A DNA stretch of 64,000 bases from Roseovarius faecimaris. Its GTDB lineage: Bacteria; Pseudomonadota; Alphaproteobacteria; Rhodobacterales; Rhodobacteraceae. The stretch is from NCBI RefSeq assembly GCF_009762325.1, contig NZ_CP034348.1, positions 2,920,501 to 2,984,500 on the forward strand. The letters run 5' to 3'. Below, piece by piece: positions 4,312 to 59,883 of this stretch; the stretch's first letter is position 1; each line of letters starts with the position of its first letter. The position numbers and the translations under genes were made by a program. The notes under the pieces are model-generated. The model ran no database searches, was not told the origin of the DNA, and saw nothing but the letters and a program-made list of their open reading frames with translations.

Positions 4312-5616
4312 ATGGCCGACCTCACATCCGACTTCATCGGGATCAAATCCCCCAACCCGTTCTGGCTGGCCTCAGCGCCGCCCACGGACAAGGAATACAA
4401 CGTCCGCCGCGCCTTCGAGGCCGGCTGGGGTGGTGTCGTCTGGAAGACGCTGGGCGAGGACGGCCCGCCCGTGGTCAACGTCAACGGGCCGCGCTACGGC
4501 GCCATCTGGGGCGCGGACCGCCGCCTTCTGGGTCTGAACAATATCGAGCTGATCACCGACCGGCCCCTGCAGGTGAACCTCGATGAAATGACCCGCGTGA
4601 AAAAGGATTACCCGGACCGCGCGATCATCGCCTCGCTCATGGTCCCGGTGAATGAGGATGCCTGGAAAGCCATCCTTGAACGCGTGGCCGAAACCGGCTG
4701 CGACGGGGTGGAGCTGAATTTCGGCTGCCCGCATGGCATGTCCGAACGCGGCATGGGCTCGGCCGTGGGACAGGTGCCCGAATATGTGGGCCAGGTCGCC
4801 GAATGGTGCAAGAAACACACCGATCTGCCGGTGATCGTGAAGCTGACGCCCAACATCACCGATATCCGCAAACCCGCGCAGGCGGCCAAGGATGGCGGGG
4901 CCGATGCGGTGTCGCTGATCAACACGATCAATTCGATCACCGGTGTGAACCTCGACAATTTCGCGCCCGAACCCACGATTGACGGCAAAGGCGCACATGG
5001 CGGCTATTGCGGCCCGGCGGTCAAGCCGATTGCGCTGAATATGGTGGCCGAAATCGCCCGCACACCGGGGCTGGGCGGCATCCCGATCTCGGGCATTGGC
5101 GGGGTCACGACATGGCGCGACGCGGCTGAATTCATGGCGCTGGGTGCCGGCAATGTGCAGGTCTGCACGGCGGCCATGACCTATGGCTTCAAGATCGTGC
5201 AGGAAATGATCTCGGGCCTCAGCCAGTACATGGACGAAAAAGGCTTCACATCGACCTCCGAGCTTGTTGGCCGCGCGGTGCCGAACCTGTCCGATTGGCA
5301 GCACCTCAACCTCAACTATGTCACCAAGGCGCGGATCGACCAGGACCTCTGCATCAAATGCGGGCGCTGCTATGCGGCCTGCGAGGACACGTCGCACCAG
5401 GCGATCACCATGTCCGAGGACCGTGTCTTTGACGTCGATGACAGCGAATGCGTGGCCTGCAACCTCTGTGTGAATGTCTGCCCGGTCGAGGGTTGCATCA
5501 CCATGGAAGAGCTGGCCCCCGGCACGGTGGATGAACGCACCGGCAAAGTGGTTGAGAAGGAATACGCCAACTGGACCACGCACCCCAACAACCCGGGCAC
5601 CTGCGCCGCCGAGTAG
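4312..5616 (+). CDS. preA: NAD(P)-dependent dihydropyrimidine dehydrogenase, PreA subunit
   Basis: Catalytic subunit, 434 aa. It reduces uracil and thymine to the 5,6-dihydro bases on FMN. Residues 1-320 form a dihydroorotate-dehydrogenase-like TIM barrel; the active-site cysteine is C139 in the conserved GCPHGMSERGMG loop, matching the general acid of mammalian DPD. Two C-terminal 4Fe-4S motifs follow (CIKCGRCYAAC and CVACNLCVNVCPVEGC) and receive electrons from PreT. The barrel plus C-terminal ferredoxin order is that of PreA and of the C-terminal half of DPD. An AAAGGAGA ribosome site precedes the ATG. It is the last gene of its operon and converges on the multiheme cytochrome gene. Confidence 0.94.
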   Translation: MADLTSDFIGIKSPNPFWLASAPPTDKEYNVRRAFEAGWGGVVWKTLGEDGPPVVNVNGPRYGAIWGADRRLLGLNNIELITDRPLQVNLDEMTRVKKDYPDRAIIASLMVPVNEDAWKAILERVAETGCDGVELNFGCPHGMSERGMGSAVGQVPEYVGQVAEWCKKHTDLPVIVKLTPNITDIRKPAQAAKDGGADAVSLINTINSITGVNLDNFAPEPTIDGKGAHGGYCGPAVKPIALNMVAEIARTPGLGGIPISGIGGVTTWRDAAEFMALGAGNVQVCTAAMTYGFKIVQEMISGLSQYMDEKGFTSTSELVGRAVPNLSDWQHLNLNYVTKARIDQDLCIKCGRCYAACEDTSHQAITMSEDRVFDVDDSECVACNLCVNVCPVEGCITMEELAPGTVDERTGKVVEKEYANWTTHPNNPGTCAAE

Positions 5617-8593: not shown

Positions 8594-9226
8594 TCAGAGC
8601 GCGCCGATCCCCTTGAGGATGATCGTCTTGACCGAGGCCTTGACCTCCTCCCACTGATCCGCCGACAGCGGCGCGCCGCCATTCAGCGTCTCGATCTGGT
8701 GCCCGAAATCCGCGTAATGCTGGGTCGTGGCCCAGAGCATATAAAGCAGATGCCGCGGGTCCACCTCGTCCATCTGCCCCTCGTCGATCCAGCGCCGGAT
8801 CACCGCCATGCGCCCCTCGGTCCATTCGACCAGCGTCGTCTCCAGATAATCCTGAATGACCGGCGCGCGGTGCATCACCTCGCTGGCCCAGACTTTCGAG
8901 CCCGCCGGATGGCGGCGGCTGATCTCCAGCTTGGCGTCGATATAGGCCCCGATTCCCTCTACCGGGCCGGGGGCCGCGTCAAATACATCCGCCGCCTTCA
9001 GCCAGTCCTGAAAGATGTTCTGCACCACCTGACGATAGAGCGCCTCCTTGGTGGGAAAATAGTAATGCAGATTGGCCTTGGGCAGCCCCGCCACATCGGC
9101 AATCAGCTGCATTGTCGCCCCGCCAAACCCCGCCTCCGCAAAGGTTTTTTCCGCCGCCTCCAGGATCAGCCGTTCATTCTCCTGGCGGATTTCTTTCTTG
9201 CTTACAGGTCGGGCAGTTTGCGGCAT
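8594..9226 (-). CDS. rutR: TetR-family pyrimidine-responsive repressor, RutR-like
   Basis: 210-aa dimeric repressor. The helix-turn-helix is at about residues 20-65 (FGGATMQLIADVAGLPKANL) and a RutR-type C-terminal effector domain follows (WATTQHYADFG near residue 165). It is divergent from the N-carbamoyl amidohydrolase gene. The 125 bp between them hold two near-perfect RutR-type operators (9250-9265 and 9283-9298), so it very likely represses the catabolic operon and itself, and is released by uracil or thymine as in E. coli. The assignment over its paralogue at 7933-8547 rests on position: this copy is directly next to the operators. Confidence 0.85.
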   Translation of the reverse strand: MPQTARPVSKKEIRQENERLILEAAEKTFAEAGFGGATMQLIADVAGLPKANLHYYFPTKEALYRQVVQNIFQDWLKAADVFDAAPGPVEGIGAYIDAKLEISRRHPAGSKVWASEVMHRAPVIQDYLETTLVEWTEGRMAVIRRWIDEGQMDEVDPRHLLYMLWATTQHYADFGHQIETLNGGAPLSADQWEEVKASVKTIILKGIGAL

Positions 9227-9249
9227 CTTTCAGCAGGTCCAGAAAAATC

Positions 9250-9265
9250 TTGACCAGATGGTCAG
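9250..9265. promoter_or_regulatory. RutR-type operator 1
   Basis: TTGACCAGATGGTCAG matches the E. coli RutR consensus TTGACCA-NN-TGGTCAA at all but the last base. It lies 23 bp before the rutR-like start codon, on the repressor side of the divergent promoter region. Confidence 0.8.
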
Positions 9266-9282
9266 GGTGTGGTGCTCTCATC

Positions 9283-9298
9283 TTGACCATACGGTCAG
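9283..9298. promoter_or_regulatory. RutR-type operator 2
   Basis: TTGACCATACGGTCAG differs from the RutR consensus at two positions. Its centre is 33 bp from that of operator 1, about three helical turns, so two dimers could bind on the same face of the helix. It is 53 bp before the amidohydrolase start. Confidence 0.75.
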
Positions 9299-9351
9299 GA
9301 TCAGACTGATTGCAAGAGGCCCGTAAGAGGCCGCACCAAGGGAGAGACGAC

Positions 9352-41627: not shown

Positions 41628-42611
41628 TCAGTTGGCCACGCTCTCCAGATAGGCAATCACGTTGGCCCGGTCCTCTTCCTTTTTCAGACCGGCAAAGGCC
41701 ATCTTGGTGCCCGGCGCAAAGCCTTTCGGGTTTTCCAGGAAGGCGTTCAGCGTGTCGGCAGTCCAGGTTTCGGCCACGGCCGAGAGGCTGCCCGAATACC
41801 GGAACCCGTCCACCGAGTCGACCGCGCGACCGACCACACCATAAAGGTGCGGGCCGACGCCGTTCTTGCCGTCTTCCAGCTTGTGGCAGGCCTTGCACTT
41901 GTTGAAGACCTTCTTGCCCTTGTCCGCGTCCGCAGCCGCGACCACGGCGGCAAAGCCCGCCGCATCGGCACTGGCCGCTTCCTCTGCCGCAGGCTCCTCA
42001 GCCGCTGCTTCCTCGGTGGCCGCTTCTTCCGCCGCAGGCTCTGCCGCCGCTTCCTCTGCCGGGGCCGAGGCCAGCTCGACCCGGTCGCCGTCCAGCAGAT
42101 CGAGATACAGAATCACATCCGCGCGGTCCTCAGCCTTCTTCAGACCCGAGAAGGCCATCTTGGTGCCCGGCGCAAAGCCTTTGGGGTTTTCCAGGAAGGC
42201 ATTCAGCTCTTCCACACCCCAGACCTGCGCCACCGCCTGCATCGCGCCGGAATAGGCAAAGCCGTCTGCCGTGCCCACGTCACGCCCGACCACACCATAA
42301 AGGTAGGGGCCGGTGGCATTCTCGCCCTTTTCCAGCTTGTGACAGGCCTTGCACTTGCCAAACACCTTGGCGCCCGACGCTTCGTCCGCCGCTGCATAAA
42401 GCGTGGCCAGATCGGGGCCTTCTTCAGCCGCCTCGTCGCCGCCATGATCGTCGCCGGTGTCAATCACATAAGCCTGATGGTGATCATCGCCTTTGCCATG
42501 CCCACCGCCCATCGCATACAACGATTCGGACACCCATTTGCCCACCAGGAAAACCAAGAGTGCACCGCACAGAGCTCCTACGAGCTTTGTCATCGTCATC
42601 GTGTCAAACAT
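41628..42611 (-). CDS. cycY: Membrane-anchored cytochrome c_y with duplicated heme domain
   Basis: 327-aa protein whose start MFDTMTMTKLVGALCGALLV closely resembles cytochrome c_y of Rhodobacter, an uncleaved anchor that lets the cytochrome stay at the membrane and shuttle electrons from bc1 to terminal oxidases. The heme domains are residues about 75-175 (C87, C90, H91; Met152) and 225-327 (C239, C242, H243; Met304), sharing GFAPGTKMAF and LKKxEDRA, so one arose by duplication. An Ala/Glu linker (185-215) joins them. Known c_y has one heme domain. The oxidase partner could be the cbb3 complex encoded here. Confidence 0.88.
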   Translation of the reverse strand: MFDTMTMTKLVGALCGALLVFLVGKWVSESLYAMGGGHGKGDDHHQAYVIDTGDDHGGDEAAEEGPDLATLYAAADEASGAKVFGKCKACHKLEKGENATGPYLYGVVGRDVGTADGFAYSGAMQAVAQVWGVEELNAFLENPKGFAPGTKMAFSGLKKAEDRADVILYLDLLDGDRVELASAPAEEAAAEPAAEEAATEEAAAEEPAAEEAASADAAGFAAVVAAADADKGKKVFNKCKACHKLEDGKNGVGPHLYGVVGRAVDSVDGFRYSGSLSAVAETWTADTLNAFLENPKGFAPGTKMAFAGLKKEEDRANVIAYLESVAN

Positions 42612-42729
42612 AAGACCCGTCCATATCAAGTTTCTGGGGGCGTATGTATCCGCTTCCCCCCCGGGTGCGCAAGGTGTAGTTTCCGCGACCAAACGCCCGA
42701 CCTCGGGCCAGGGAACAGGAACACGTCCG

Positions 42730-43563
42730 ATGACCAAACGCATTGCCTTTCAGGGCGAGCTCGGGGCCTATTCGCACCAGGCCTGCCATGAGACCTATCC
42801 CGAGATGGAGGCCCTGCCCTGCCGCACCTTCGAGGATGCGATGGAAGCGGTCCGCTCGGGCGAGGCGGAACTGGCCATGCTGCCGGTCGAAAACTCCACC
42901 TTCGGACGCGTCGCCGACATTCACCACCTGCTTCCGCAATCGGGGCTGCATATCATCGGCGAGGCTTTCGTGCGCGTGCATATCAACCTGCTGGCCCTGC
43001 CCGGCACCGCGCTGGACACGGTCGAACGCGCCATGAGCCACACCATGCTGCTGGGCCAGTGCCGCGCCTTTCTGGAGGCCAACGGCATCCACCGCGTCAC
43101 CGGCGCCGACACCGCCGGCTCGGCGCGCCATGTCGCCGAACAGGACGACCCGACGCTGGCTGCTCTCGCCTCGGAACTGGCGGGCGAGATTTACGGGCTT
43201 GACGTGCTGGCCCGCCATATCGAGGACGAAGGCAACAACACCACGCGTTTTCTGGTGATGTCGCAAACGCCCGATTACACGCGCCGCGGCGAGGACGGGA
43301 TGATGACCAGCTTTGTCTTCCAGGTCCGCAACATCCCCGCCGCGCTCTACAAGGCGATGGGCGGGTTCGCCACCAACGGCGTGAACATGACCAAGCTGGA
43401 AAGCTACATGGTGGGCGGCTCGTTCAGCGCCACGCAGTTCTATGCCGATATCGAAGGCCACCCCGAGGATCCGGCAGTGAAACGCGCGCTGGACGAACTG
43501 GACTACTTCACCTCCGACATCACCATGCTGGGCGTCTATCCCGCCGATCCGGGGCGGCACTGA
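42730..43563 (+). CDS. pheA: Prephenate dehydratase
   Basis: 277-aa enzyme making phenylpyruvate from prephenate in phenylalanine synthesis. The catalytic domain (1-180) has the start RIAFQGELGAYSHQA, the VENSTFGRV loop and the active-site TRF in NNTTRFLVM. The C-terminal ACT domain (about 195-270) gives feedback control by phenylalanine; its usual ESRP reads ESYM here. No chorismate mutase domain is fused. ATG at 42730 is the start; the open frame before it is the cytochrome promoter region. It is divergent from the cytochrome gene. Confidence 0.93.
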   Translation: MTKRIAFQGELGAYSHQACHETYPEMEALPCRTFEDAMEAVRSGEAELAMLPVENSTFGRVADIHHLLPQSGLHIIGEAFVRVHINLLALPGTALDTVERAMSHTMLLGQCRAFLEANGIHRVTGADTAGSARHVAEQDDPTLAALASELAGEIYGLDVLARHIEDEGNNTTRFLVMSQTPDYTRRGEDGMMTSFVFQVRNIPAALYKAMGGFATNGVNMTKLESYMVGGSFSATQFYADIEGHPEDPAVKRALDELDYFTSDITMLGVYPADPGRH

Positions 43564-43575
43564 TCCGCCGCCTCG

Positions 43576-45216
43576 TCAGGCCGGAACCGGCGTGCTCTTT
43601 GCAAAGGCCACTTTGCCCCGCCGCACCGTCTCGACAACCGTGCAATCGGCCAGGGCCTGCGCATGCATCAGCGGATTGCGGTCCAGAATGGCGAAATCCG
43701 CGATCTTGCCCGGCGTGATCGAGCCTCTCTGATCCTCCTGGAACACCTGCCAGGCGGCGTCGATGGTCTGCGCCTTCAGCGCCGACAGAACCGGGATTCT
43801 CTCCTCCTCGCCCAGCAACCGCCCGCTCGCGGTCCGGCGGTTGACCGCGCAATGCGCCAGGTGCAGCGGCCGCGTCGGCGTCACCGAGGCGTCATTGTGA
43901 AGCGTATAGCGCAGCCCGACCCGCTCGGCCGTGCCCGCGGGCGAAATCCGCTCGGCCCGCTCCGGGCCTAGGAAGGTATCGTAATGCCGGTCGCCCCAGA
44001 AATGGATATGAGCCGAGAAGAAGCTGACCGTCATGCCAAGCTCGACCATGCGGCGCATCTGATCCTCGCGCAGCACCTGCCCGTGAATCACCGTGTGCCG
44101 GTGATCCTGCCGGGGATGCGCCGCCTGCGCGGCCGCGACCGCCTCTATGAAGGCCTCGCTGCCCGCATCGCCATTGCAATGGCAATGGATCTGAAAGCCC
44201 ATCCGGTGCAGCTTGAGCACCTCCGCACACAGCACCTCGCGATCCGTATAGGCCATGCCACAGGGCGCCTCGGGGTTCGACACCTTGTGATAGGGCCTGC
44301 TCAGAAAAGCGGTCTGAAGCTGAAACGCCCCGTCGGTAAACAGCTTGCGCGGACCCAGCGTGACATAGGCGCTCGGCGGCCAGTCAAACGCCTCCGGACC
44401 CTGGCTCAGACCCGGCTCCAGCTCACCAATGGGCAGCAACAGCAGGTCGATCCCCGGATCGCGCCCTTCGGGCAGACTGGCAAAATGCTCCAGCATCTCG
44501 CGCGTGGCCCAGGCGTTCTGCGCATAGGTCACCCCATGCGCGAGATACTCGTCGCGGCAGGCGTCGAACCCTTGCCAGAACCGCGCCCGGTCGATCAGGA
44601 AATCGGTGTCGCCCATCTCGCCCATCGCCGACAGCCCCTCGATGAGGCCGGTCAGCGCGCCGGTTTCCGGGTCTCGCCCATACCGGCCCCCGGCAGGGTC
44701 CGGCGTGTTCCGGCCAAGCCCCTGCCTGCGCAGCGCATGGGAATTGGCCACGCCATTATGGCCCGACGCATGCAGCACCCAGACCGGATGCTCGGTCGAG
44801 ACGGCGTCCAGCTCCGCGCGCGTCGGCATCCGGCCCTCGGCAATCGCGGTATTGTCGAACAGAACGCCCATCACCCACTCGCCGCGCGGCGTCGCGGCCG
44901 CCTTCTGCGCCAGCCGCGCCAGGGCCGTCGCCATATCGGCACAGTCCCCGCGCGGCGGCGCGGCCAGATCGACCCGAAACAGCCGGATGAACCCGGGATC
45001 GGGAAAATGCCCATGCGGGTCGATAAAGGCGGGCATCATCGTGCGCCCGGCCAGATCGACCTCTTCGGCCCCCGGCGACAGCAGCGCGCGCAGCGCCTCC
45101 GCCGGGCCGACCGCCAGGATACGATCCCCCTCGGTCAGCACCGCCTCCACACTCGGCTGTGCGTCATCCATCGTCAGGATCGTGCCGCGACTATAGAGCG
45201 TCTGCCCGTTACCCAT
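43576..45216 (-). CDS. YtcJ-like metal-dependent amidohydrolase
   Basis: 546-aa amidohydrolase of the Amidohydro_3 group. Metal ligands are in PAFIDPHGHFPDP (residues about 62-74), a histidine pair in FQIHCHCNGDAG, VIHGQ further on, and an aspartate in TLHNDASVTP. No signal peptide. The family includes exoenzyme regulatory proteins and N-substituted formamide deformylases, so the substrate cannot be named. It follows, with an 87-bp gap, an orphan Tat-exported peptide-binding protein gene, suggesting that protein's ligand may be this enzyme's substrate. Confidence 0.85.
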   Translation of the reverse strand: MGNGQTLYSRGTILTMDDAQPSVEAVLTEGDRILAVGPAEALRALLSPGAEEVDLAGRTMMPAFIDPHGHFPDPGFIRLFRVDLAAPPRGDCADMATALARLAQKAAATPRGEWVMGVLFDNTAIAEGRMPTRAELDAVSTEHPVWVLHASGHNGVANSHALRRQGLGRNTPDPAGGRYGRDPETGALTGLIEGLSAMGEMGDTDFLIDRARFWQGFDACRDEYLAHGVTYAQNAWATREMLEHFASLPEGRDPGIDLLLLPIGELEPGLSQGPEAFDWPPSAYVTLGPRKLFTDGAFQLQTAFLSRPYHKVSNPEAPCGMAYTDREVLCAEVLKLHRMGFQIHCHCNGDAGSEAFIEAVAAAQAAHPRQDHRHTVIHGQVLREDQMRRMVELGMTVSFFSAHIHFWGDRHYDTFLGPERAERISPAGTAERVGLRYTLHNDASVTPTRPLHLAHCAVNRRTASGRLLGEEERIPVLSALKAQTIDAAWQVFQEDQRGSITPGKIADFAILDRNPLMHAQALADCTVVETVRRGKVAFAKSTPVPA

Positions 45217-45303
45217 CTCTGCCCTCCCCGCCGGGGTCTATCCCAAAGAGACCCTCCGCGCCATCTCGGGCGCGAAGGGCCGGAGCCGTGACCCGGGAGC
45301 CGG

Positions 45304-46896
45304 TCACACCATCCACCAGCGCTCCATGATACGCCGGCCGTCGAACCCACGAACCCAACTCAGGTCGCCGTGGGCGATCTTCTCGTTGCGGGCATGCACC
45401 TCGTTGGCGAACATCGGGACGATATTGCCCCCCTCGTCGCGCAGGATCACCTGCATCTCGCGATACATCTCGGCGCGCAGCCCCTCGTCCAGCTCCGCCC
45501 GGGCCTGCACCAGAAGTTCGTTGAACCGCGGGTGATCCCATTGCGTGTCATTCCACGCCGCCCCGGCGGCAAACCCGGTCGAGAACATCGTGTCCTCGGT
45601 CGAATACCCGCCCCAATAGCTCGCGCTCCACGGCTTTTTCATCCACACATCGGACCAGTAGCCATCGTTCGGCTCGCGCACCACGTTGATGTTGATGCCC
45701 GCCGCCTTGGCCGACGCCTGGAACAGCACCGCCGCATCCAGCGCCCCGCTATAGGCCGCATCCGAGGCGCTCAGGTTGATCTCGATATCGCCCAGCCCCG
45801 ATTTCTCGTAATGATGGCGGGCCTTGTCGGGATCGTACTCAAGCTGCTCGATATCCGCCGCGTGATAGCGATAGGACGGCCCGATCGGATGGTCATTGCC
45901 CACCACCCCGTGGCCGAACAGGATCTTGTCCACGATCTCCTGCCGGTTGATCGCGTATTTGAGCGCCTGGCGCAGATGCAGATTGTCGAACGGCGCCACT
46001 TTCGTGGCCATCGGGAAGGTATAGTGCAGCGGCCCCGCGCCTTCCTCGATCACCACGCCCGGCGTACGCGACATCAGCGCCAGCGTCTTCAGTTCCACCC
46101 GGTCGATGCAATCCACCTCGCCGGTGATCAGCGCGTTCTGGCGCGCGGCCGGATCGGTGATCGAATGCAGCTCGACCGAGTCGGCATGTGCCGCCCCGTC
46201 CTTCCAGTAATTCGGGTTGCGCTCGAACTCATAGCGCTGGCCCGGCTGTTCGGTCTTCAGGATATACCCGCCCGAGCCGCCCGCCTTCCAGTCGATGCCG
46301 CCATCCTTGGCCGGATAGATGCCAAAGGTGGCCTCGTTGAAGTTGAACGGGAAATCCGCATTGCCGTTCTCAAGCGTGAAGACAACCGTATTGCCGTCGG
46401 CGCTGATATCGGTCACCGCCGCCATCACCGGCTTACCAACCGACTTGGAGTCGTCGCCGCGGTGATAGTTGATCGAGGCAATCACATCCTCGGCGGTCAT
46501 CGTCTTGCCATTGTGGAACTCGACCCCGTCGCGCAGCTTGAACGTCCAGACCCGCGCATCGGGCGACGACCCCCACTCGGTGGCAAGCGATCCCACCAGA
46601 TTGCCCTGCGCATCAAGTTCGGTCAGCGTGTTGGCCACGCCATAGGCCACCACCCATTGCAGACCATTGGTCAGCGTCGCCGGGTCCAGCGTGTCGGACG
46701 TGGCGCCATGCCCCATGGCAAGCCGCATATGCCCGCCCTTGACCGGCGTGGCGGCATGGGCCTTGTCAAACAGACCTGCCCCGACACTCAGCGCCATACC
46801 CAGGGCCGTGCTCCGCCCAAGAAACTCGCGTCGAGACATGCGGCCCTTCTGGGCCTCACGGATCAACCATTGTGCATGCTTTTCCTGTGCCGTCAT
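45304..46896 (-). CDS. Orphan Tat-exported extracellular solute-binding protein, family 5
   Basis: 530-aa binding protein of the oligopeptide/dipeptide class. The N-terminus has a twin-arginine signal (MSRREFLGRS at about 20-29, hydrophobic core to AHA near 48). Domain hallmarks are RVWTFKLRDGVEFHNGKTMT and YAINRQEIVDKILFGHG. The ATG at 46896 is used; the frame upstream is short. There are no permease or ATPase genes beside it, so it must use a transporter from elsewhere or act otherwise. It is upstream of the amidohydrolase and divergent from an XRE regulator. Confidence 0.88.
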   Translation of the reverse strand: MTAQEKHAQWLIREAQKGRMSRREFLGRSTALGMALSVGAGLFDKAHAATPVKGGHMRLAMGHGATSDTLDPATLTNGLQWVVAYGVANTLTELDAQGNLVGSLATEWGSSPDARVWTFKLRDGVEFHNGKTMTAEDVIASINYHRGDDSKSVGKPVMAAVTDISADGNTVVFTLENGNADFPFNFNEATFGIYPAKDGGIDWKAGGSGGYILKTEQPGQRYEFERNPNYWKDGAAHADSVELHSITDPAARQNALITGEVDCIDRVELKTLALMSRTPGVVIEEGAGPLHYTFPMATKVAPFDNLHLRQALKYAINRQEIVDKILFGHGVVGNDHPIGPSYRYHAADIEQLEYDPDKARHHYEKSGLGDIEINLSASDAAYSGALDAAVLFQASAKAAGININVVREPNDGYWSDVWMKKPWSASYWGGYSTEDTMFSTGFAAGAAWNDTQWDHPRFNELLVQARAELDEGLRAEMYREMQVILRDEGGNIVPMFANEVHARNEKIAHGDLSWVRGFDGRRIMERWWMV

Positions 46897-46985
46897 TTTC
46901 TTTCTCCCCAAATGTGCCGGCCGCAAGGCCGCGCCATGGCCTGAGATTTGGAAAAAAGCTTGATTCTGAAAACTTCGCGGATGTA

Positions 46986-47010
46986 CGCTATTGTTAGCGA
47001 TCTGACGCTA
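46986..47010. promoter_or_regulatory. CGCTA repeats at the divergent promoter
   Basis: CGCTA-TTGT-TAGCG (46986-46999) is a perfect dyad and a third CGCTA lies at 47006-47010, 20 bp from the first. The array is 31 bp before the XRE regulator start and 89 bp before the binding-protein gene, so it is a candidate operator for that regulator. Confidence 0.5.
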
Positions 47011-47041
47011 TATACCTGCAACCCGCGAACCATATACCATC

Positions 47042-47845
47042 GTGTCCGACACTTTCCCGAAAAACCTGCGCAGCCTCTGCGCCGAGTATGGCTCGATCGC
47101 CGAGGTTTGCCGTGGCGTCGGGATCAACCGGCAGCAATTCAGCCGCTATCTCAGCGGCGCCGGGATGCCCTCCGCCCATAACCTGCGCCGCATCGCCCGT
47201 TACTTCTCGATCAGCGAGGCCGACCTGTTCGCCAACCACCAGGACTTCACCCAGCGGCATATCCTCAACCAGAAGCGGGCGGCGCACGGTCCCGTGGACC
47301 TGATGATCGGGCCGTTCCGCGATCAGGCCAAGCTGCTGCGCCGCTACCTCGGCTTCTATCACGGCCATTTTCAGACCCCTTCCTGGGACAACATGGTGCT
47401 GCGCAGCCTGGTGTGGCTCTATGAAAAGGACGGGTTCGTGATGACCCGCTCTCTGGAACGGGTAACCGCCGCCGATGGCAGCATACGGCAGAAATCCCGT
47501 TACGAAGGCATGGCCATGCAAAGCGGAAACCGGATTTACGTCATCGAGCAGGAGCTTGCCCGCGAAGGCTCGGTCGTGGAAACGATCCTGACCCCCTCGC
47601 ACCGGCAGCAGGTCAAATATCTGCGCGGGCTGACCATGGGCGTGGCCTGGCGCCCGCATGTCATGCCCTACAGCTCCCGCGCCATCTGGAAGCGCATCGA
47701 AGACCGGGTCGCGGCGCGTGACGCCTTGCTGGCCTGCGGCGCCTTCCCTCTCGAAAGCCGCGACATCGATCCGACCATCCGCAGCTTTCTCAGGGACGAT
47801 CCCGCCACCGACAGCCCCGCATCGCCGCGCAACATCTTGGTATAG
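47042..47845 (+). CDS. XRE-type transcriptional regulator
   Basis: 267-aa regulator starting at GTG. The N-terminal helix-turn-helix reads AEVCRGVGINRQQFSRYLSG (about 19-38), then PSAHNLRRIARYF. The remaining 200 residues are an uncharacterised domain with many aromatic and basic residues (RYLGFYHGHFQTPSWDNMVL), presumably for ligand binding. It faces the binding-protein/amidohydrolase operon across an interval with CGCTA repeats, so it probably controls that operon. Confidence 0.8.
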   Translation: MSDTFPKNLRSLCAEYGSIAEVCRGVGINRQQFSRYLSGAGMPSAHNLRRIARYFSISEADLFANHQDFTQRHILNQKRAAHGPVDLMIGPFRDQAKLLRRYLGFYHGHFQTPSWDNMVLRSLVWLYEKDGFVMTRSLERVTAADGSIRQKSRYEGMAMQSGNRIYVIEQELAREGSVVETILTPSHRQQVKYLRGLTMGVAWRPHVMPYSSRAIWKRIEDRVAARDALLACGAFPLESRDIDPTIRSFLRDDPATDSPASPRNILV

Positions 47846-47869
47846 CGCCACACGCGCCCGCTGGCCCCG

Positions 47870-49195
47870 TCACGCCGCCACGATATGGCTGTGACCGAAG
47901 TTGAGCGGATAATGGCACAGCTCGCGATGCAGCCGGTGGGTGCCGCGCTCGAAGACATAAAGATTGCGCATATAGCCTGCGACCACGTAAAACTCCTGCC
48001 CCGGCAGCAACGCGATCCCGCAGGGATATTGCAGGCCGATGGGCTGGCACTCGGTCCGGTGCTTCAACGCGCCGCTGCCCGCGTCGAACACCATCACCGT
48101 ATGGGTCGCCGGATAGCTTGCAATCACCTCCTCATGCGCCTCGTCAAATTCGATGCTCAGACCGTGGCGCATCAGCGTGCGCGCCGCGGCCGTGCCCACC
48201 TCGACCAGACGCCCCGACGCCGTGTTCACCCGCACCGTCGGCGCCACCGCATAGCTGGTGCCCTCCGAATTGGTCGGATCGGCATCATGCGCCGCCGCCT
48301 GCCCCTTGAAAAAATGCCGGTCCTCGCCCTCTCCGATCAGCTCCGCCTGAATCGCGAAGATCGTTTCCCTGTCACGGGCGCACAGGTGGCGCAGTTGCTC
48401 CCGCGCATTGCCAAGATACTTGTCCACCAGCTTGCCGCTCTCCATCTCGACCACCGTGATCGACGGCTCCACGATATGCCGTGGCAGGCCATAATCGGTC
48501 TCCCCCGGCGCGACGGTCGAGCCGTAATTGGCAATCGCGGCATGTGAGCCGTCGCTCAGGATCCTGATCTCATGCGGCGCGATCCCGTGGGTCGAAAAAT
48601 CGCCCACGATCTTCAGGCTGCGCGGGTCGCGCAGGGTCACATGCCCGAAATGATCCTGCGGTTTACCGCTATAGGGCCGTTTCGGCGCGCGCTCGGTCAC
48701 CGCCACCAGATCATTGCCCAGAAACGCGCCATGCCCGCCGCCGATCCAGTATGGCCTTACCGGTTTGCCCAGGGCGATCCGGTCCAGGGTCTTGGGGTCG
48801 AAAGCCACATAGGTGTCACGCTCCATCGACCCGAAAAAGCCCAGCCTCTTGTCCGGGCTGATCGCAATGTCATGGCCGCGCACCGGAAACAGCGCCTGCC
48901 GCACCGACCCGTCAAACCCGAACCGGGTCAGCATTGTGATGTTCTGGTCATAGCCCTTGGGGATGGCCCTGCGCATCCTCGGATGCTCCAGCACCGGCAC
49001 GCCTTGATACTTCGCCAGCCAGGGCGCATAGCCCGGAATATAAAGGTCGATGCCCGAAAGGTCTGGCGGCGCGGCCTGCTGTGTCGCGCCAAACGCCAGG
49101 CGATCCGCGCCGCCCAGGCGGGGCGCATCGCACCCCGCCAGCACCGCTGAAACCCCGCCCGCCAGCACGAACTCACGGCGTTTCATCCTGGTCAT
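47870..49195 (-). CDS. DUF1513-like exported beta-propeller protein
   Basis: 441-aa protein with a combined Tat and lipoprotein signal (MKRREFVLAGGVSAVLAGC), so probably a folded lipoprotein. The body has propeller-like repeats with GHDIAISPDKRLGFFGSMER, IAPHEIRILSDGSHAAIANY and HTVMVFDAGSG, as in DUF1513 proteins. That family is usually coded beside imelysin iron-uptake genes, none of which is here. ATG at 49195 is chosen; it follows the polyglycine lipoprotein gene by 4 bp, so the two form one operon. Confidence 0.75.
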   Translation of the reverse strand: MTRMKRREFVLAGGVSAVLAGCDAPRLGGADRLAFGATQQAAPPDLSGIDLYIPGYAPWLAKYQGVPVLEHPRMRRAIPKGYDQNITMLTRFGFDGSVRQALFPVRGHDIAISPDKRLGFFGSMERDTYVAFDPKTLDRIALGKPVRPYWIGGGHGAFLGNDLVAVTERAPKRPYSGKPQDHFGHVTLRDPRSLKIVGDFSTHGIAPHEIRILSDGSHAAIANYGSTVAPGETDYGLPRHIVEPSITVVEMESGKLVDKYLGNAREQLRHLCARDRETIFAIQAELIGEGEDRHFFKGQAAAHDADPTNSEGTSYAVAPTVRVNTASGRLVEVGTAAARTLMRHGLSIEFDEAHEEVIASYPATHTVMVFDAGSGALKHRTECQPIGLQYPCGIALLPGQEFYVVAGYMRNLYVFERGTHRLHRELCHYPLNFGHSHIVAA

Positions 49196-49199
49196 CGGC

Positions 49200-49619
49200 T
49201 CAGCCCTCGCCGCCGCCGCCTCCACCGCCGCCACCTCCGCCGCCGCCTTCACTCCCCATGGCGGGTGCGGGGATCGGCGGGGCACTGGCAATCGACGCTT
49301 CACCAATGCGGATACACTCGGCGCGCGAGCCGCATTTCTGCCTCTGACCGTCAGGGGTGAGTACCGTCATCGTCGTGATTTCCGGGTTATACCTCATGCC
49401 ATAAGATGTGGTCGCAAATACTGTGTCATCCTCGTAGCTTTCGGTCACAATCTCAAAGCTGTATCCATCGATTGTAATCACTTCAGACTCTGTATTCGGG
49501 TTCACCGAGCTTGTGCCTTTTTCCATCCCCGCACAGCCCGCAAGACCGCCAAAGCACACAGCCGCAATCAGCAAGCACGCTGACTGTCGGCGGGGCCGAA
49601 GAGTGCTGATGAATGTCAT
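49200..49619 (-). CDS. Lipoprotein with polyglycine tail
   Basis: 139-aa predicted lipoprotein. The signal has a lipobox LAGC at about residues 26-29. The mature part is short and mostly beta-like (ITIDGYSFEIVTESYEDDTV) with two cysteines (KCGSRAECIR). It ends SE, 13 consecutive glycines, then EG; the codons mix GGC, GGA and GGT. No family is recognised. It is upstream of, and nearly touches, the DUF1513-like gene, so the pair may work together at the cell envelope. Confidence 0.65.
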   Translation of the reverse strand: MTFISTLRPRRQSACLLIAAVCFGGLAGCAGMEKGTSSVNPNTESEVITIDGYSFEIVTESYEDDTVFATTSYGMRYNPEITTMTVLTPDGQRQKCGSRAECIRIGEASIASAPPIPAPAMGSEGGGGGGGGGGGGGEG

Positions 49620-49740
49620 TTGAATATCCTTTCCATTCCCTCAAATCCGCCCCCGCGCTGGTGTCGGCCGCGTCACGATCGGCCGATGCGGGGGTAGGTA
49701 TGAGTATGCCGGGCAAGGACGGCGCCGAGAATCCGCAGCG

Positions 49741-49761
49741 CTACGTAGAAAGGCTACGTAG
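49741..49761. promoter_or_regulatory. Paired CTACGTAG palindromes upstream of the kinase gene
   Basis: Two exact 8-bp palindromes (49741-49748 and 49754-49761) separated by AAAGG, centres 13 bp apart. They lie 76 bp before the TTG start. NarL/FixJ-type regulators bind short inverted sites, and the response regulator of this operon is of that type, so this may be its own control site. Confidence 0.5.
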
Positions 49762-49836
49762 TGATACGGATCGACAAACCGGGGGGCAGATGCGCTACTC
49801 TGAAAGTGCGACGTCATTCCCAAGCAAGGTGCCCCC

Positions 49837-51732
49837 TTGACCCAAGGCTCCCCTGCAATGACCCCGCCCGCCCCCGTGCGGGCTCCGCGCTGGTTGCCCC
49901 TGCTGGGGCTTGCGGCGGGGCTGGCCTATCTGCTGATCATGCAGTTTGCCGGCGCCCTGCTTGGCGACACATCGCCGGACTACCCCTTTGACATACGCCC
50001 CGTCAGCTATACCGGCCCGGCCGGGGACATGACCTGTGCTCTGGCGGACAGCACGGCGCCTCCGCTCGATCGCACCACCTTTGTCTCCGGCTATGGCATG
50101 ACGCCGGATGTCTTTGCCATCCGCCTCGCCTCCGGGCCCGCGGACCCCGTTCTGGTGCTCCGCGCGGTGCCCGACAGCGCGGCCCTGCTGACCTGCCGCA
50201 ACGGTGTCGCCGCATCGCCACCGGTTGCGCAGGGCGAGGCATTCCCCGCCTCCCGGCGGGTCTTCGCGACCCCCCTGATCGCCTTTCCCCTGGCCGCTCC
50301 GCACGCCGAGACAACCTACCTGCTTCATGTCGTGCAGGGGGCGGCGCTGGCCTTTCCCCTGATCGTGCAGACCCGCGAGGGGTTTCTGTCCGACACCGAC
50401 AAGCGGCTGAAACTGCATATCGCCTTCACCAGCATCATCGCCTTCATGGTGATGTACAACATCATCCTCAGCGCCCTGACCGGCCAGCCCGCCTTTGTCT
50501 TCAATGCGCTCACCATCGCCAGCTTTCTGCTGCTGGGCCTTATCCTCAACGGTCTCGGCGCTCTCTATCTCTGGCCCGAGCGGCCCGCCCTGACCAACCC
50601 TTTGGTGATCGTCGGGCTGTCCGGGGCCACCCTGTTTGCGCCCTTCTATGTCTTCCGCTTCCTCGTCCCCGAGGATCAGCCGCTGCTCGCCAGTGGCCTG
50701 CGCCTGCTGATCTGGCCCGTGGTCTCGGCGGTCCTGGTCCTGCTCGCGCTGGTCACACCTTATTATTATTACGCCCTGCCGATCACGGCCTGGTGGATCC
50801 TCTTCGTCATCGTGGCGTTGATCCGGCTACTGCGCTCCGCCCGCGTCGGCAATCCGCGGGCGGCGGTCCTGCTCGTGGCGGCGCTCGGGGCCATCGTCCC
50901 GGCGATGATCGCGGGCGCCGCCAAGGAATTCTTCGGCCACAGTTTCGGCAGCATGGCCCCGCATCTGAACGAACTGGCCCTGGTCTTCGAGGCAACGCTT
51001 TTCACCCTCGCCCTGGCCTATCAGATCCGCCTGGCGCGCTGGCGCGAAATGGACGCCCTGACCGAGCTGAACCTGCATTCGGAACGCGCCCGGCAACAGC
51101 TGCTCGATACGATCGACACCGAACGCACGCGGCTCGCCAGCGACCTGCACGATTCCGCCGGGCAGATGCTCGGCCTCATCTCGTCGCGGCTGAAAAAGGC
51201 CGCACAGGCTGACGGGCCCGATGCCGGGCACACCGCCGACCTGCTGGAAACCGCCAGTCTGACAAGCGACACCCTCTCGGAAATCCGCCGCATCTCGCAC
51301 GAGCTGCACCCCGCCACGCTGGCCCATCTCGGGCTTGAAAAGGCGCTTGTCGCGCTCTGCGACGCGGCCAGCGAGGCCGGGCCGGTCCGCATCGACCACC
51401 AGCTTTCGTTTGATCCCGAACGGCTCGACGACGGGCAGAACCTGCAAATCTACCGTATCTTCCAGGAACTGATCGCCAACACCATCCGCCATTCAGGGGC
51501 CAGCGACGCCATGCTCTAGCTGCATTCCTCAGGCCCCGAATTTCACCTGCGCTTCAGTGACAATGGCCGGGCCGCCGCGCCATCCGCCACACCCCAGGGC
51601 ATCGGCCGCACCATCCTGAACGAACGCGCGGCGCGGCTCGCGGGCACGCTCACCCTCAAACAGGGCAGGATGGGCATGGTGGCCTCCCTTGTCTTCACCT
51701 CTCACACATCGCCATCCGGGGACATGCCGTGA
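49837..51732 (+). pseudogene. 7TM-type sensor histidine kinase interrupted by an in-frame amber codon
   Basis: The frame encodes a kinase with an N-terminal helix, a periplasmic region, about seven helices (roughly 200-395) and a HisKA_3 domain with the phosphorylated histidine in LASDLHDSAGQ (about residue 438). The ATPase N-box FQELIANTIRHSG is read, then TAG at 51517-51519 stops translation at 560 aa. Past the TAG the same frame continues for 70 codons with the G1 box FSDNG and G2 box GIGRTILNERAARLAG, to TGA at 51730-51732 overlapping the regulator gene. Without the last part no ATP lid can form, so the kinase should be dead unless the amber is read through. Start is TTG 49837 or ATG 49858. 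Confidence 0.85.
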
Positions 51733-52409
51733 CATCCGTGATCATCGCCGACAATCATCCGCTCATCCGCGCCGGCGTGCGCCAGCTGATCGACGCGCAT
51801 CCCGGCTACCGCCTGCTTGACGAGGCCGGCGATTGCGACGCGTGCCTCTTCAAGGTCCGTGAACTGCGCCCCGACATCCTGTTGCTCGACCTCAACATGC
51901 CCGATACCGGCGGCTTCGGCGTGGTGCGGGCGCTCAAGGCGGACAACATCCCCTGCCGGATCGTGATCCTGTCGATGTATTCGACCCGCGAATTCGTTGA
52001 CGCGGCCCGACAGCTCGGATGCGCCGGCTTCGTCGCCAAAGAGGATGCCGGATCGGAACTGATCGAGGCCCTGAACAACCTGTCCCGCGGCTTCCAGATG
52101 AGCAGCTCGGTCGGGCGCGGCGAAAAACCCCTGCACGCGCGCGACCAGACCGACACAGCGCCGATCGCCGGCATGGATCAGCTCACCTGGACGGAATTAC
52201 GGGTGCTGGCCTCTGTGGCCGCCTCCTCCACCACGCAGGAAATCGCGCAGCGCATGGGCATATCGCCCCGAACCGTGGACACCCACCGTCAGAACATCTC
52301 GCGCAAGCTTGACCTCTCGGGGGCCAACAGCCTGGTGCGCTATGCCGCCGAGCACCGCCAACAGATCACCGCCCTGCTGACCGACGCCCGCACCAACCGC
52401 GATCACTGA
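51729..52409 (+). CDS. NarL/FixJ-family response regulator
   Basis: 226-aa regulator. The receiver domain (1-120) has the phosphoacceptor D54 in LLLDLNMPDTGG, plus the acidic pocket and K104-equivalent in GFVAKEDAG. The LuxR-type helix-turn-helix (about 155-215) reads TTQEIAQRMGISPRTVDTHR. It starts at GTG, overlapping the kinase stop by GTGA, so they are translated as a pair. If the kinase is inactive, the regulator is either uncontrolled or phosphorylated by another kinase or acetyl phosphate. Confidence 0.9.
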   Translation: MTSVIIADNHPLIRAGVRQLIDAHPGYRLLDEAGDCDACLFKVRELRPDILLLDLNMPDTGGFGVVRALKADNIPCRIVILSMYSTREFVDAARQLGCAGFVAKEDAGSELIEALNNLSRGFQMSSSVGRGEKPLHARDQTDTAPIAGMDQLTWTELRVLASVAASSTTQEIAQRMGISPRTVDTHRQNISRKLDLSGANSLVRYAAEHRQQITALLTDARTNRDH

Positions 52410-53423: not shown

Positions 53424-53865
53424 GTTCAGGCCCCTTATAGCTCTGGTCTCGGCGACAGAAGCTTATGTTTTCGCGGCCCCGTCAAGCCCCGCGCATGCCC
53501 GCCCCGTTCCGCCCGGTGCGCAGCGTGTGGAAAAACTGAAACATTTGGCCCCGGCATGCGCGTCTCACGACGTTGAGAGCGGACGTGTGCCCCCGGTCGA
53601 GAAACACCGTTATCGCATTGCTTTCATTGCTTTAATTTTCCTTCAACCCGGATTTTTCCGTGATCGCCTCGCCGCTTCGGCCACGGCGCCGTGATCCGCG
53701 TTCACAGAAATGAAATCGCCCGTGACCGGCTTTTCACGCCGTTGCGACCGGCCATTTTCCAGCCGCCTCAAGGCCCCAGATTGTTTGGCAGAGCCGGGGC
53801 AGAACGCACCGGCACAACAGACACCCACCCAGGCGGAGACGTCTCCGCAAGAAAGGAAAAGACCC
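53424..53865. other. 442-bp interval upstream of the repeat-protein gene
   Basis: No gene was found. An A/T-rich patch near 53620-53665 is the likely promoter zone for the downstream gene, and it contains ATTGCTTTC and ATTGCTTTA side by side. No clear -35/-10 pair, operator or terminator could be fixed. A long leader with AAGAAAGGAAAAG lies before the ATG at 53866. Confidence 0.4.
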
Positions 53866-54348
53866 ATGCGTAACCTGAGTATTCTGGCCCTGATCGCCGC
53901 AACCGCAACCGCCGCCCCCGCCTTGGCCGGCTATGACATCGATGACCGCACCGAGAATGGCGTCTACTCCGCCCTCGACCTCGGTGACCGCGCCGAAGAC
54001 AACACTTTCGCTCAGGTCGACCTTGGTGACCGTGCCGAAGACAACACCTTCGCACAGGTCGACCTCGGTGACCGCGCCGAAGACAACACCTTCGCTCAGG
54101 TCGACCTTGGTGACCGCGCCGAAGACAACACCTTCGCTCAGGTCGACCTCGGTGACCGCGCCGAAGACAACACTTTCGCACAGGTCGACCTTGGTGACCG
54201 CGCCGAAGACAACACTTTCGCTCAGGTCGACCTTGGTGACCGCGCCGAAGACAACACTTTCGCACAGGTCGACCTCGGTGACCGCGCCGAAGACAACACC
54301 TTCGCGCAAGTCGACCTTGGTGACCGCGCCGAGCGTCTGATCGGCTAA
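53866..54348 (+). CDS. Secreted protein of 14-residue tandem repeats
   Basis: 160-aa exported protein. Residues 1-21 are a signal peptide ending ATATAAPALA. Residues 24-37 are a diverged unit (DIDDRTENGVYSAL). Residues 38-149 are eight identical units of DLGDRAEDNTFAQV and 150-160 a partial unit ending ERLIG. The shape D-x-x-D-R-x-E-x-x-x-aromatic-x-x-aliphatic repeats throughout, so a beta-solenoid or stacked hairpins is likely. There are no cysteines and the charge is strongly acidic. Function is unknown: possible roles are a fibre-forming matrix protein, a calcium-binding surface protein or an ice/surface binder. AAGAAAGGAAAAG precedes the ATG. A strong terminator follows. Confidence 0.85.
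   Translation: MRNLSILALIAATATAAPALAGYDIDDRTENGVYSALDLGDRAEDNTFAQVDLGDRAEDNTFAQVDLGDRAEDNTFAQVDLGDRAEDNTFAQVDLGDRAEDNTFAQVDLGDRAEDNTFAQVDLGDRAEDNTFAQVDLGDRAEDNTFAQVDLGDRAERLIG
53977..54345 (+). repeat. 42-bp coding tandem repeat, eight full copies plus a partial
   Basis: Units begin at 53977 and repeat every 42 bp to 54312; 54313-54345 is a partial copy. Copies differ at only a few synonymous positions (CTC/CTT, ACT/ACC, GCT/GCA/GCG), which points to recent expansion. The encoded residues are identical in all eight. Confidence 0.95.
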
Positions 54349-54369: not shown

Positions 54370-54398
54370 AAAAGGGCACCCCACCGGGTGCCCTTTTT
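54370..54398 (+). terminator. Bidirectional terminator after the repeat protein
   Basis: AAAAGGGCACCC at 54370-54381 pairs with GGGTGCCCTTTT at 54386-54397 across a 4-nt loop and ends in T residues. It lies between the repeat gene and the convergent SRPBCC gene and can serve both. Confidence 0.9.
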
Positions 54399-54419: not shown

Positions 54420-54899
54420 TCAGGACAGGCCGGCTTGCTGCTTCTGATAGCGGTCTTCCAGTTCCTCGGCATACCCCGCCACGCGCTCGCGGAACCGTTT
54501 CGACAGCTTGCTGCGCGCCAGCTTCAGGGATTGCACCATCAGCCGCGCCGACAGGGTCTTGGGGCTCAGCTCCACTTCAAGGCTCATCCGCGTGCGCCCG
54601 CGCGACAGCGCCACAAGATCAATCGTCATATGCCCGCCCATATTCGGCGAGCGCGATGAGACCACCATGCCCGTCGGCGGGTCGAACTCCGTCAGCTCCA
54701 CCTGCACCTCGCGCTTGCGTCCACGCAGTTTGAAGGACGCATCCCATTTCATGCCAATCCCGACATCCGCCTTGCTATCGACCCGCTGCACCTCGGCGCC
54801 CCGGCGCAGGGCAGACCGTTCAAAGCTTTGAAAATCAGAGAGTTGCTCGAATACAAACTCGATTGGCGCTGCCACATCTTCCTGTGCGGTAAACTGCAT
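54420..54899 (-). CDS. SRPBCC-fold protein
   Basis: 159-aa soluble protein of the START/Bet v1 helix-grip fold: beginning MQFTAQEDVAAPIEFVFEQL, then alternating strands (EVQVELTEFDPPTGMVVSSR) and a long C-terminal helix (ARSKLSKRFRERVAGYAEEL). These proteins hold lipids or hydrophobic ligands; no catalytic motif is visible. It is transcribed towards the repeat-protein gene, with a shared terminator, and lies downstream of nudC on the same strand after 57 bp. Confidence 0.75.
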   Translation of the reverse strand: MQFTAQEDVAAPIEFVFEQLSDFQSFERSALRRGAEVQRVDSKADVGIGMKWDASFKLRGRKREVQVELTEFDPPTGMVVSSRSPNMGGHMTIDLVALSRGRTRMSLEVELSPKTLSARLMVQSLKLARSKLSKRFRERVAGYAEELEDRYQKQQAGLS

Positions 54900-58769: not shown

Positions 58770-59603
58770 TCACAGTCTCTGTGCGCCGAACGTATCGCAG
58801 CTATTGGGATCGCCGGTCTCGAAACCGCGGGCAAACCAACGCTGGCGCTGCTCTGATGTTCCATGCGTAAATGTATGAGGTTGCGGCACTTTTCCGGCAT
58901 TCCGCTGCAAGGTGTCATCGCCGATCTGACGTGCGGCATTCAGCGCCTCCTCCAGATCGCCCGGCTCCAGAAGATTGCCCACCTCCCGCGCCCAGACCCC
59001 GCTCAGGCAATCCGCCTGAAGCTCCAGCCGCACGGTGAGGGCATTGGCCTCCACCTGCCCAACGGCCTGACGGCGCTGGTTGACCTGGGGCAGGATGCCC
59101 AGCTCGTTCTGTACATGATGCGCGACCTCATGGGCGATCACATAGGCCGCGGCAAAATCCCCGCCCGCGCCAAGCTGCCGCTGCATCGTGGCAAAGAACG
59201 CGGTGTCGAGATAGGCCTTGCGGTCCGCCGGGCAGTAAAACGGCCCCGTCGCGCCCGAGGCCCCGCCACAGGGGCTTTGCGTGACGCCGGAATAGAGCAC
59301 CAGAACGGGCGGGGCATAATTCTGGCCCAGCCGCTCGCGAAAGACGCCGGACCACACATCCTCCGTCGTGGCCAGCACCTTGCGCGTGAAGTCCGCCGCG
59401 CGTTCCTCCTCGGCGCTGATCTGGCGCGGGGCCCCGCCTTGCCCGCCCTGCCCCTGCAACAGCGGCGTCACATCGACCCCCGCGAAATACCCAAGCGCCA
59501 GAATGACCAGCAGACCGACGCCGCCAATTCCACCTGCCCTGCCGCCGCTCATCCGCCGCCTGTCTTCGACATTCCGACTGGAGCGTATACCTTTCAAGCG
59601 CAT
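58770..59603 (-). CDS. Neutral zinc metallopeptidase, YpfJ/KPN_02809 family
   Basis: 277-aa membrane-anchored peptidase. A basic cytoplasmic start (MRLKGIRSSRNVEDRRR) precedes one helix (GGVGLLVILALGYFAGV) and an outward catalytic domain with HEVAH in YVIAHEVAHHVQNELG and a conserved EANALTVRLELQADCLSGVW containing the third metal ligand. ATG at 59603 is chosen because it gives the family start MRLKGIR; the longer frame is promoter sequence. The physiological substrate of this family is unknown. Confidence 0.9.
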   Translation of the reverse strand: MRLKGIRSSRNVEDRRRMSGGRAGGIGGVGLLVILALGYFAGVDVTPLLQGQGGQGGAPRQISAEEERAADFTRKVLATTEDVWSGVFRERLGQNYAPPVLVLYSGVTQSPCGGASGATGPFYCPADRKAYLDTAFFATMQRQLGAGGDFAAAYVIAHEVAHHVQNELGILPQVNQRRQAVGQVEANALTVRLELQADCLSGVWAREVGNLLEPGDLEEALNAARQIGDDTLQRNAGKVPQPHTFTHGTSEQRQRWFARGFETGDPNSCDTFGAQRL

Positions 59604-59883
59604 GTCATCCCCCGAGGTCTGATGCGTTACATGATAACAGCTTAGGCACAAAACCCTCGATTTTCCTAGAAATAAGGGGCTTGCCGCATGCTGCCCTTGC
59701 GTCACCCGCCACGGGGTCGCCGCCGGGCGGATGAGAAAGATGCGCGTTTGCCTGGCCGTTTCCGATGCAGGATGCGCGCGCGTTGCGGCGCCCGCGCTGT
59801 GCGATAGTGGCCCGCAGGTCATGGACCTTGCTCCGCCTGCGCTCTAACCTGATGCGCGTATGGCGAATCCGAAGGCTTCCGAC

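Follow-up and report, generated by a model that had tools for sequence, protein, structure and literature searches.

A tandem-repeat protein family under selection, with a putative export signal and a conserved upstream element, at one main locus in Roseovarius

The tandem repeat proteins of Ehrlichia are secreted, acidic antigens of intracellular bacteria whose orthologs carry different repeats, the variable surface lipoproteins of Mycoplasma have a conserved promoter and signal region before exchangeable tandem repeats, and the hydrophilins and LEA proteins are charged, cysteine-free, repetitive and disorder-like. According to the excerpts of the source used here, the tandem-repeat proteins of Borgs consist of perfect amino-acid repeats that are under strong selection and evolve fast, and they are often extracellular or membrane proteins and commonly disordered (PMC9879509). 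Thus, on the same excerpts, fast-evolving extracellular proteins with perfect repeats are already known. New in the Roseovarius family described here are its shared locus, its shared upstream element and a retained pentad of residues. The family is apparently undescribed so far; it was absent from the open-access literature searched (subscription papers lay mostly outside the search).

The Borg repeats, in those excerpts, are spread over an archaeal extrachromosomal element, whereas the Roseovarius proteins form one bacterial family with mostly one locus and, unlike the Borg proteins, share a signal peptide and a conserved element upstream that belong to the family itself. The likeness to the Ehrlichia proteins, which are also secreted repeat proteins, is one of description. 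The family differs from the Mycoplasma lipoproteins in that it has no lipobox cysteine and only one copy in the genome of the window (the whole stretch of 64,000 nucleotides from Roseovarius faecimaris that was analysed), and from hydrophilins and LEA proteins in its export signal and in the sequence constraint on unit and pentad. CsgA and the beta-solenoid amyloids likewise place short repeats behind a Sec signal, but the curlin motif S-x5-QxGxxNxA is absent here, as a sequence-only reading of the window had noted: its spacing is missing by eye from DLGDRAEDNTFAQV, and a Pfam scan of nine proteins gave no match to a curlin family.

The gene under study (Table 1) has the composition that the sequence-only reading had given it, with coordinates and frame exact: a signal peptide, one diverged unit, eight exact 14-residue copies and a partial copy. 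Tandem Repeats Finder reports a period of 42, 8.5 copies, 93% matches and a score of 618, the second-best array within the window scoring 122. The eight DNA copies of DLGDRAEDNTFAQV have a mean identity of 94%, and all five of their variable sites are synonymous, as had been stated; the chance of this is 5e-4 if sites are independent (9.3 of 42 sites being synonymous). Between neighbouring copies, 28% of the synonymous sites are different; the array therefore has some age, and of the earlier proposal of a recent expansion with the protein held, the second half stands while a very recent origin does not. In the source genome (3.93 Mb, two contigs), three matches to the repeat protein were found, all within this gene. 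The protein contains no cysteine, hence none for a lipobox, and ten pentads of the pattern [DSN]xx[DE]R, here in the form DLGDR.

Table 1. Features of the repeat gene and its surroundings in the window
Feature	Position	Strand	Basis
pheA (prephenate dehydratase), usual upstream neighbour, about 10 kb off in the window	42730..43563	+	sequence search
Conserved upstream element: TCAC box, GTGA-N7-TTCAC dyad, GCGAC	53702..53757	+	sequence model
Ribosome-binding site AAAGGAAA	53852..53859	+	by eye
Gene, 160-residue putatively exported repeat protein	53866..54348	+	sequence, frame, translation; relatives
Putative Sec signal peptide MRNLSILALIAATATAAPALA	53866..53928	+	by eye; cleavage expected after APALA; conserved in alignments
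Start of the mature protein, including one diverged unit, GYDIDDRTENGVYSAL	53929..53976	+	translation
DLGDRAEDNTFAQV, eight times without residue change; 42 bp per copy, no two alike in DNA	53977..54312	+	
Partial diverged last unit DLGDRAERLIG, then stop	54313..54348	+	
Hairpin then T run, terminator-like, between convergent genes	54370..54398	.	by eye
SRPBCC/Polyketide_cyc2 protein, convergent neighbour, locus marker	54420..54899	-	Pfam

The antisense and other frames across the array are also open, because the 42-base unit permits them, and such frames would be expected if the array were no gene at all but a DNA minisatellite whose frame is open by accident. This explanation is hardly credible in view of the synonymous-only variation, the relatives at one locus, the signal peptide, the ribosome-binding site and the upstream element; the plus frame is favoured by the synonymous pattern, the signal peptide, the ribosome-binding site and the orthologs. 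The export signal, assigned by eye, is of the family type MRxLSxIALIAATATPALA, and GAAAGGA was present in all five aligned upstream regions. The hairpin behind the gene was missed by a consensus terminator scan, and Rfam matches there were sub-threshold only. The repeat gene looks real and under selection.

With the window protein as query, 36 of 84 genomes of the genus matched at E<=1, many of these matches being noise. A profile of 19 diverse members found 34 of the 84 genomes at E<=2.8e-8, many of which had supplied sequences to that profile; relatives in the same genus do exist, which supports the sequence-only reading. Not counted among the 34 were G022, G023 and G058 (8e-6 to 1.3e-4), which seem to encode another, non-repeat exported protein, PRC-barrel-like by eye, and G076 (7.5e-4) was left out of the count. 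Good relatives have a similar protein with other units, e.g. DLGDRAEQDIAAV, ARDLNDRKDGFEIA, ELSERERQTDIA, GELNPGDRKGVIYN and LDPNDRDTMNMIAR. Signal peptide, pentad and upstream element recur across the family, while the sequence of the unit changes and its length ranges from 12 to 41 residues, the upper value being reached by compound units. Additional copies away from the main locus were found in G050, G024 and G031. Outside the genus, the protein profile matched none of 393 genomes at E<=1e-6, and a broader profile matched four (1.3e-4 to 9e-4), all unlike the family on inspection; in both cases, part of the first-look candidates was scored. A Croceicoccus plasmid matched the family at 27% identity.

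Among the matches listed for Pfam, NCBIfam and PHROGs, no family aligned to the window protein over a stretch that passed by itself. Two families passed in sum only, SVS_QK with 26.2 bits against a cut-off of 25 and NF049926 with 30.8 against 27, and the matches to SVS_QK, IS4_FS_Nterm and PHROGs were taken as repeat-driven noise, as was WHIM1 in L058 in spite of an E value of 4.3e-16, again with no passing stretch. Eight members were rescanned singly for Pfam, and the library scans list further families for single members.

The genomic position is largely constant. In 16 of 20 fetched loci the family gene is flanked on one side by pheA and on the other by nudC and the SRPBCC gene, which is convergent with it (the pheA query was the L091 protein, a PDT). 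Among 80 named SRPBCC loci, 68 have pheA, and a family member was recognised in 12 (ten by profile, L076 and L094 by position), where pheA and the SRPBCC gene are 552-2113 bp apart; in 39 of the remaining 56 pheA loci, including those of Sulfitobacter and Tateyamaria, less than 150 bp separates the two. Judged from these distances, the family gene occupies the gap between pheA and the SRPBCC gene in part of the genus, and most other loci leave no room for it. The SRPBCC neighbour is probably outside the repeat-protein system.

In the window, about 9 kb (43576-52409) separates pheA from a PHP gene that is adjacent to it in G069. This segment contains by eye an amidohydrolase-like protein, an ABC substrate-binding-like protein and a regulator, the Pfam assignments being a DUF1513 protein, a histidine kinase of the 7TMR-DISM type and a response regulator of the LuxR type. 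Further observations in the window concern a frame with two CKACH segments (haem-binding-like) joined by an Ala/Glu-rich repetitive linker (41628-42743; tandem repeat 41972-42056), a probable small lipoprotein (49200-49619; LAGC, by eye) with a long C-terminal glycine run, and an HEVAHH frame (58770-59822), zinc metallopeptidase-like by eye, 4.4 kb downstream of the repeat gene.

The upstream element was captured in a 62-base model built from 22 upstream regions. The window element scores 35.8 bits (E 4.9e-9), its sequence being one of the 22, and in its own genome only this gene has a significant match (E 2.6e-8; next 0.18; 150 of 2207 candidates scored). The exact dyad GTGA-N7-TTCAC occurs in 17 of 36 upstream regions, in all but one of these at -116 to -144, and 13 of the 36 retain at most seven of the nine dyad letters. 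The looser form TGA-N8-TCA is present in 24 of 36 regions versus 2.2 in shuffles, and none of 300 shuffles reaches 24; the shuffles overstate this significance, because the 36 sequences share ancestry and some of them are nearly identical.

A scan of the genus with the element model, in which 64 candidates were scored for each genome, had matches at E<=1e-3 in 26 genomes, the majority of them contributors to the model. Six element sites had no protein-profile match. Two of these led, by the element alone and with frames chosen by eye, to new repeat proteins, with AEGRDPGEVPGVDNVQPWLT in G051 and AERDPGQVPGVDNQQPWLT in G003 (L223, L225). Their units of 19-20 residues have P-G-x-D-N-x-x-P-W in common with the G005 protein (L161) and show the pentad in its loose form at best. 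The element also led to two related, exported-looking 114-residue proteins without repeats (G016:C6:611839, L222; G032:C2:12762, L220), which carry [ND]PSDR close to where the mature part begins and end with LGSHGR, and in G073 to a short exported-looking protein in which the pentad is absent by eye; an additional element in G031:C59 adjoins an assembly gap. Matches in G064 and G056 (E 0.004-0.007) are ascribed to chance, with no exported protein behind them by eye.

Outside the genus, two of 393 genomes had an element match at E<=1e-3 among the matches listed; at most 13 candidates per genome were scored among these, so the scan is a weak negative for the other genomes. In G318 (E 3.5e-5) the element precedes MRILSALAIVAATAGTAFA and a pair of DAPHIDPW[ST]SEYR units, with the pentad absent by eye. 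This genome of another genus contains two element copies 755 bp apart (G318:C56:95612-96500; L231, L228, L230), one ahead of an exported-looking protein of 76 residues that contains these 14-residue units, the second ahead of short reading frames, some of them exported-looking; the pair is possibly a small cluster. The match in G363 (4.8e-4) was taken as chance, nothing similar lying downstream by eye.

The element may be the site for a regulator. The CRP site is TGTGA-N6-TCACA, a spacing that differs from that of the upstream dyad. The direct repeat TGA-N8-TGA, the CenR motif of R. sphaeroides in the part of PMC9275681 consulted, occurs in six of 36 upstream regions versus 2.6 in shuffles (9 of 300 shuffles reach six), which is weak, the dominant signal being the inverted TGA-N8-TCA. 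Neither the ChvI motif of Caulobacter, given as TTGC-N3-GCAA in the available section of PMC9731502, nor the BvrR boxes as they appear in an extract of PMC10538546 agree with the element by eye.

The arrays themselves are strongly constrained. Over 25 arrays, pS was 0.30, pN 0.024 and pN/pS 0.078 (25 of 36 genes; the other 11 have no ungapped array under the rule used), and therefore selection acts on the protein. It is the protein itself that is constrained, because gene conversion would remove synonymous differences as well. In 35 of the 36 members the pentad occurs once or more, under a loose pattern that also allows T and x1-3, and the number of pentads ranges from 1 to 17; the exception is L076 of R. 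atlanticus. At the same locus in that species (about 4542-5477, minus strand) the gene product is an exported-looking protein of 291 residues whose repeats are of the GAPFMNDEKDNQLGFGF type and lack the pentad, and the upstream element there is only partial.

In eight 12-residue arrays, core positions were alike at 0.99 within and 1.00 between arrays and non-core positions at 0.78 within and 0.21 between; as the units were picked by the core pattern, core conservation is partly built in, and some arrays are from sister species. One third of same-residue codons differ in these arrays. Non-core likeness within an array drops to 0.56 in G050b and G075 and to 0.28 in G029, so that homotypic stacking, by which units must match each other and which the likeness within and unlikeness between arrays had suggested, was rejected as a general rule: these three keep little beyond the core.

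Copy number varies between species (17 units in G062 and 12 in G017; eight pentads in G006 and two in G055), in line with the sequence-only reading. G069 alternates DLGDRADQDVAAV-like and DLGDRTDNTFAQY-like units, G061 has the DLGDRADQDVAAV-like kind only, and the species of the window has only the DLGDRTDNTFAQY-like unit, one residue longer. The simplest story would be an ancestor with both units and subsequent amplification of one or the other. In G011, units of 12 and 13 residues alternate in one protein with a period of 25.

A variable shield or surface decoy against phages or grazers, with a sequence that turns over under outside pressure, would also have different arrays from species to species at one locus behind a similar signal peptide and control element. 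The strong constraint inside arrays speaks against it, however, and we consider it quite improbable. Differences in unit between arrays would equally suit a peptide precursor, cut into identical, species-specific peptides of 12-14 residues that act outside the cell, as would the C-terminal [IVLF][GAS], which is found in 27 of 36 members (dipeptide frequency in mature parts 0.098) and by eye frequently coincides in phase with the end of a unit. Yet no constant cleavage site between units was seen, single-pentad members exist, and Pfam found no protease or transporter among eight neighbours (the metallopeptidase-like frame is 4.4 kb off), all of which makes a precursor very unlikely.

The composition points to disorder. 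By charge and hydropathy, 33 of 36 mature parts, with starts set by a simple A-x-A rule, fall on the unfolded side; none of the 36 contains cysteine, and most are acidic, the exceptions being G030 and L094 with a net positive charge and the neutral G052. The window protein has a net charge of -28 and a charge fraction of 0.35, which rises to 0.49 in relatives. This charged, cysteine-free, disorder-like composition would also fit a hydrophilin- or LEA-like envelope protectant, a disordered filler that binds with little sequence specificity and gives protection from salt, drying or osmotic stress, and so would a marine genus with halotolerant species names. But purifying selection on exact residues exceeds the needs of a filler and certain members have only one or two pentads, so that a protectant is improbable.

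The sequence-only reading had likened the repeats to those of amyloid or beta-solenoid surface proteins; in a fibre subunit of this kind the units would stack as coils and the protein assemble at the surface. The identity of units within the protein would suit stacking, and the best AlphaFold2 (AF2) model of the window protein, made from three sequences, has regular strands (mean pLDDT 66.9, pTM 0.68), with one or two per 14-residue unit and block pLDDT values of 59-79 over the array, which may be read as a beta-solenoid. However, the four other models had mean pLDDT values from 49.6 down to 29.9 (50, 47, 31, 30), and with the same three sequences the diverged ortholog L102 gave some helix and no strand (pLDDT 47.2, pTM 0.12). 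A search of PDB structures with the window model had no match at E<=0.001, the CsgA fibril 8enq being at E 2.8, and a sequence search of PDB chains gave weak matches only (best E 0.055). Units that keep the core and otherwise differ between copies (G029) and the alternating units of G011 also argue against regular coils. In the portion of PMC11795689 available, AF2 gives beta-solenoids for 32 of 78 random perfect repeats, and strands in the perfect repeat without strands in L102 are as expected from this artefact. The proposal of a regular beta-solenoid or amyloid is not supported, and such a fibre is unlikely. Full disorder, which the sequence-only reading had set against a fibre, is nearer to the results than the fibre is (33 of 36 on the unfolded side), although it is unproved. 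The window protein is a natural warning case for the use of AF2 on perfect repeats.

One match complicates the assignment of disorder. L060 (G050, 8719-9330, minus strand), with a ELSEQEREDLFA-type 12-residue array, matches Pfam MgtE_N at 42.8 bits (cut-off 25.9; E 8.4e-11) with one passing stretch, and was kept as a helix hint; a library scan found MgtE_N in two of 18 members. The MgtE_N domain is a superhelix of short helices, the cytosolic part of a magnesium channel. Its short units resemble the 12-residue arrays, whereas the Roseovarius proteins have a signal peptide and, by eye, no membrane part. The 12-residue arrays may be helical because of this match, which lowers confidence in a disordered chain. 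An array folded like an alpha-solenoid, with one short capped helix per unit, would agree with L060, with the pentad [DSN]-x-x-[DE]-R, which we take to be a helix N-cap box followed by Arg, and with the helix in the L102 model. Nevertheless, MgtE_N (PF03448) was not matched by the window protein or by seven other members scanned, the L102 model is of low confidence (pLDDT 47) and the charge-hydropathy values are those of unfolded chains, so a superhelix has little probability.

The best explanation, to which we assign a probability of roughly 0.45, is that of an exported, probably disordered acidic chain that displays many copies of a short motif to a partner. The product would be small, Sec-exported, cysteine-free, acidic, mostly disordered and multivalent, and the array would multiply the motif, whether within the envelope or beyond the cell. 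Arrays would turn over by tandem duplication of one unit or another, with selection then holding the unit, and the dedicated upstream element would control the gene, having reached other loci in company with a signal peptide of similar type. The open frame, the array and its selection pattern, the locus, the shared element and the pentad are observed; we infer disorder in the cell, multivalent binding, the final location and the partner. The selection pattern indicates that the residues matter, and array turnover that it is mainly the pentad, the export signal and the control parts that stay. Counted in favour of the displayed chain were the signal peptide and locus of the relatives, pN/pS, the constancy of the core, the pentad, the composition, the dyad, and that the element as bait led to exported-looking proteins absent from the protein profiles. 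Against it count the basis of disorder in composition and one ortholog's failed fold next to a stranded model of moderate confidence, the lack of the pentad in L076, G073 and G318 and its loose form at best in G051 and G003, and the restriction of the exact dyad to 17 of 36 regions.

A wider and more doubtful proposal is a cassette in which a conserved control element and export signal accept exchangeable repeat arrays, so that lineages would build one envelope protein anew out of different units, the pentad being mostly kept. If true, these disordered, multivalent proteins of the envelope would constitute a new class with its own regulator, found by a DNA element rather than by protein similarity, and G318 would be a candidate member beyond the genus.

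Protein similarity fades between genes at the same locus, and control DNA still links many of them. Searching with the element is thus a way to fast-evolving exported repeat proteins that are invisible to homology searches. In addition, the family offers a natural series of arrays, with 1 to 17 pentads and different units at one main locus, which would allow the effects of copy number, core and flanks to be told apart.
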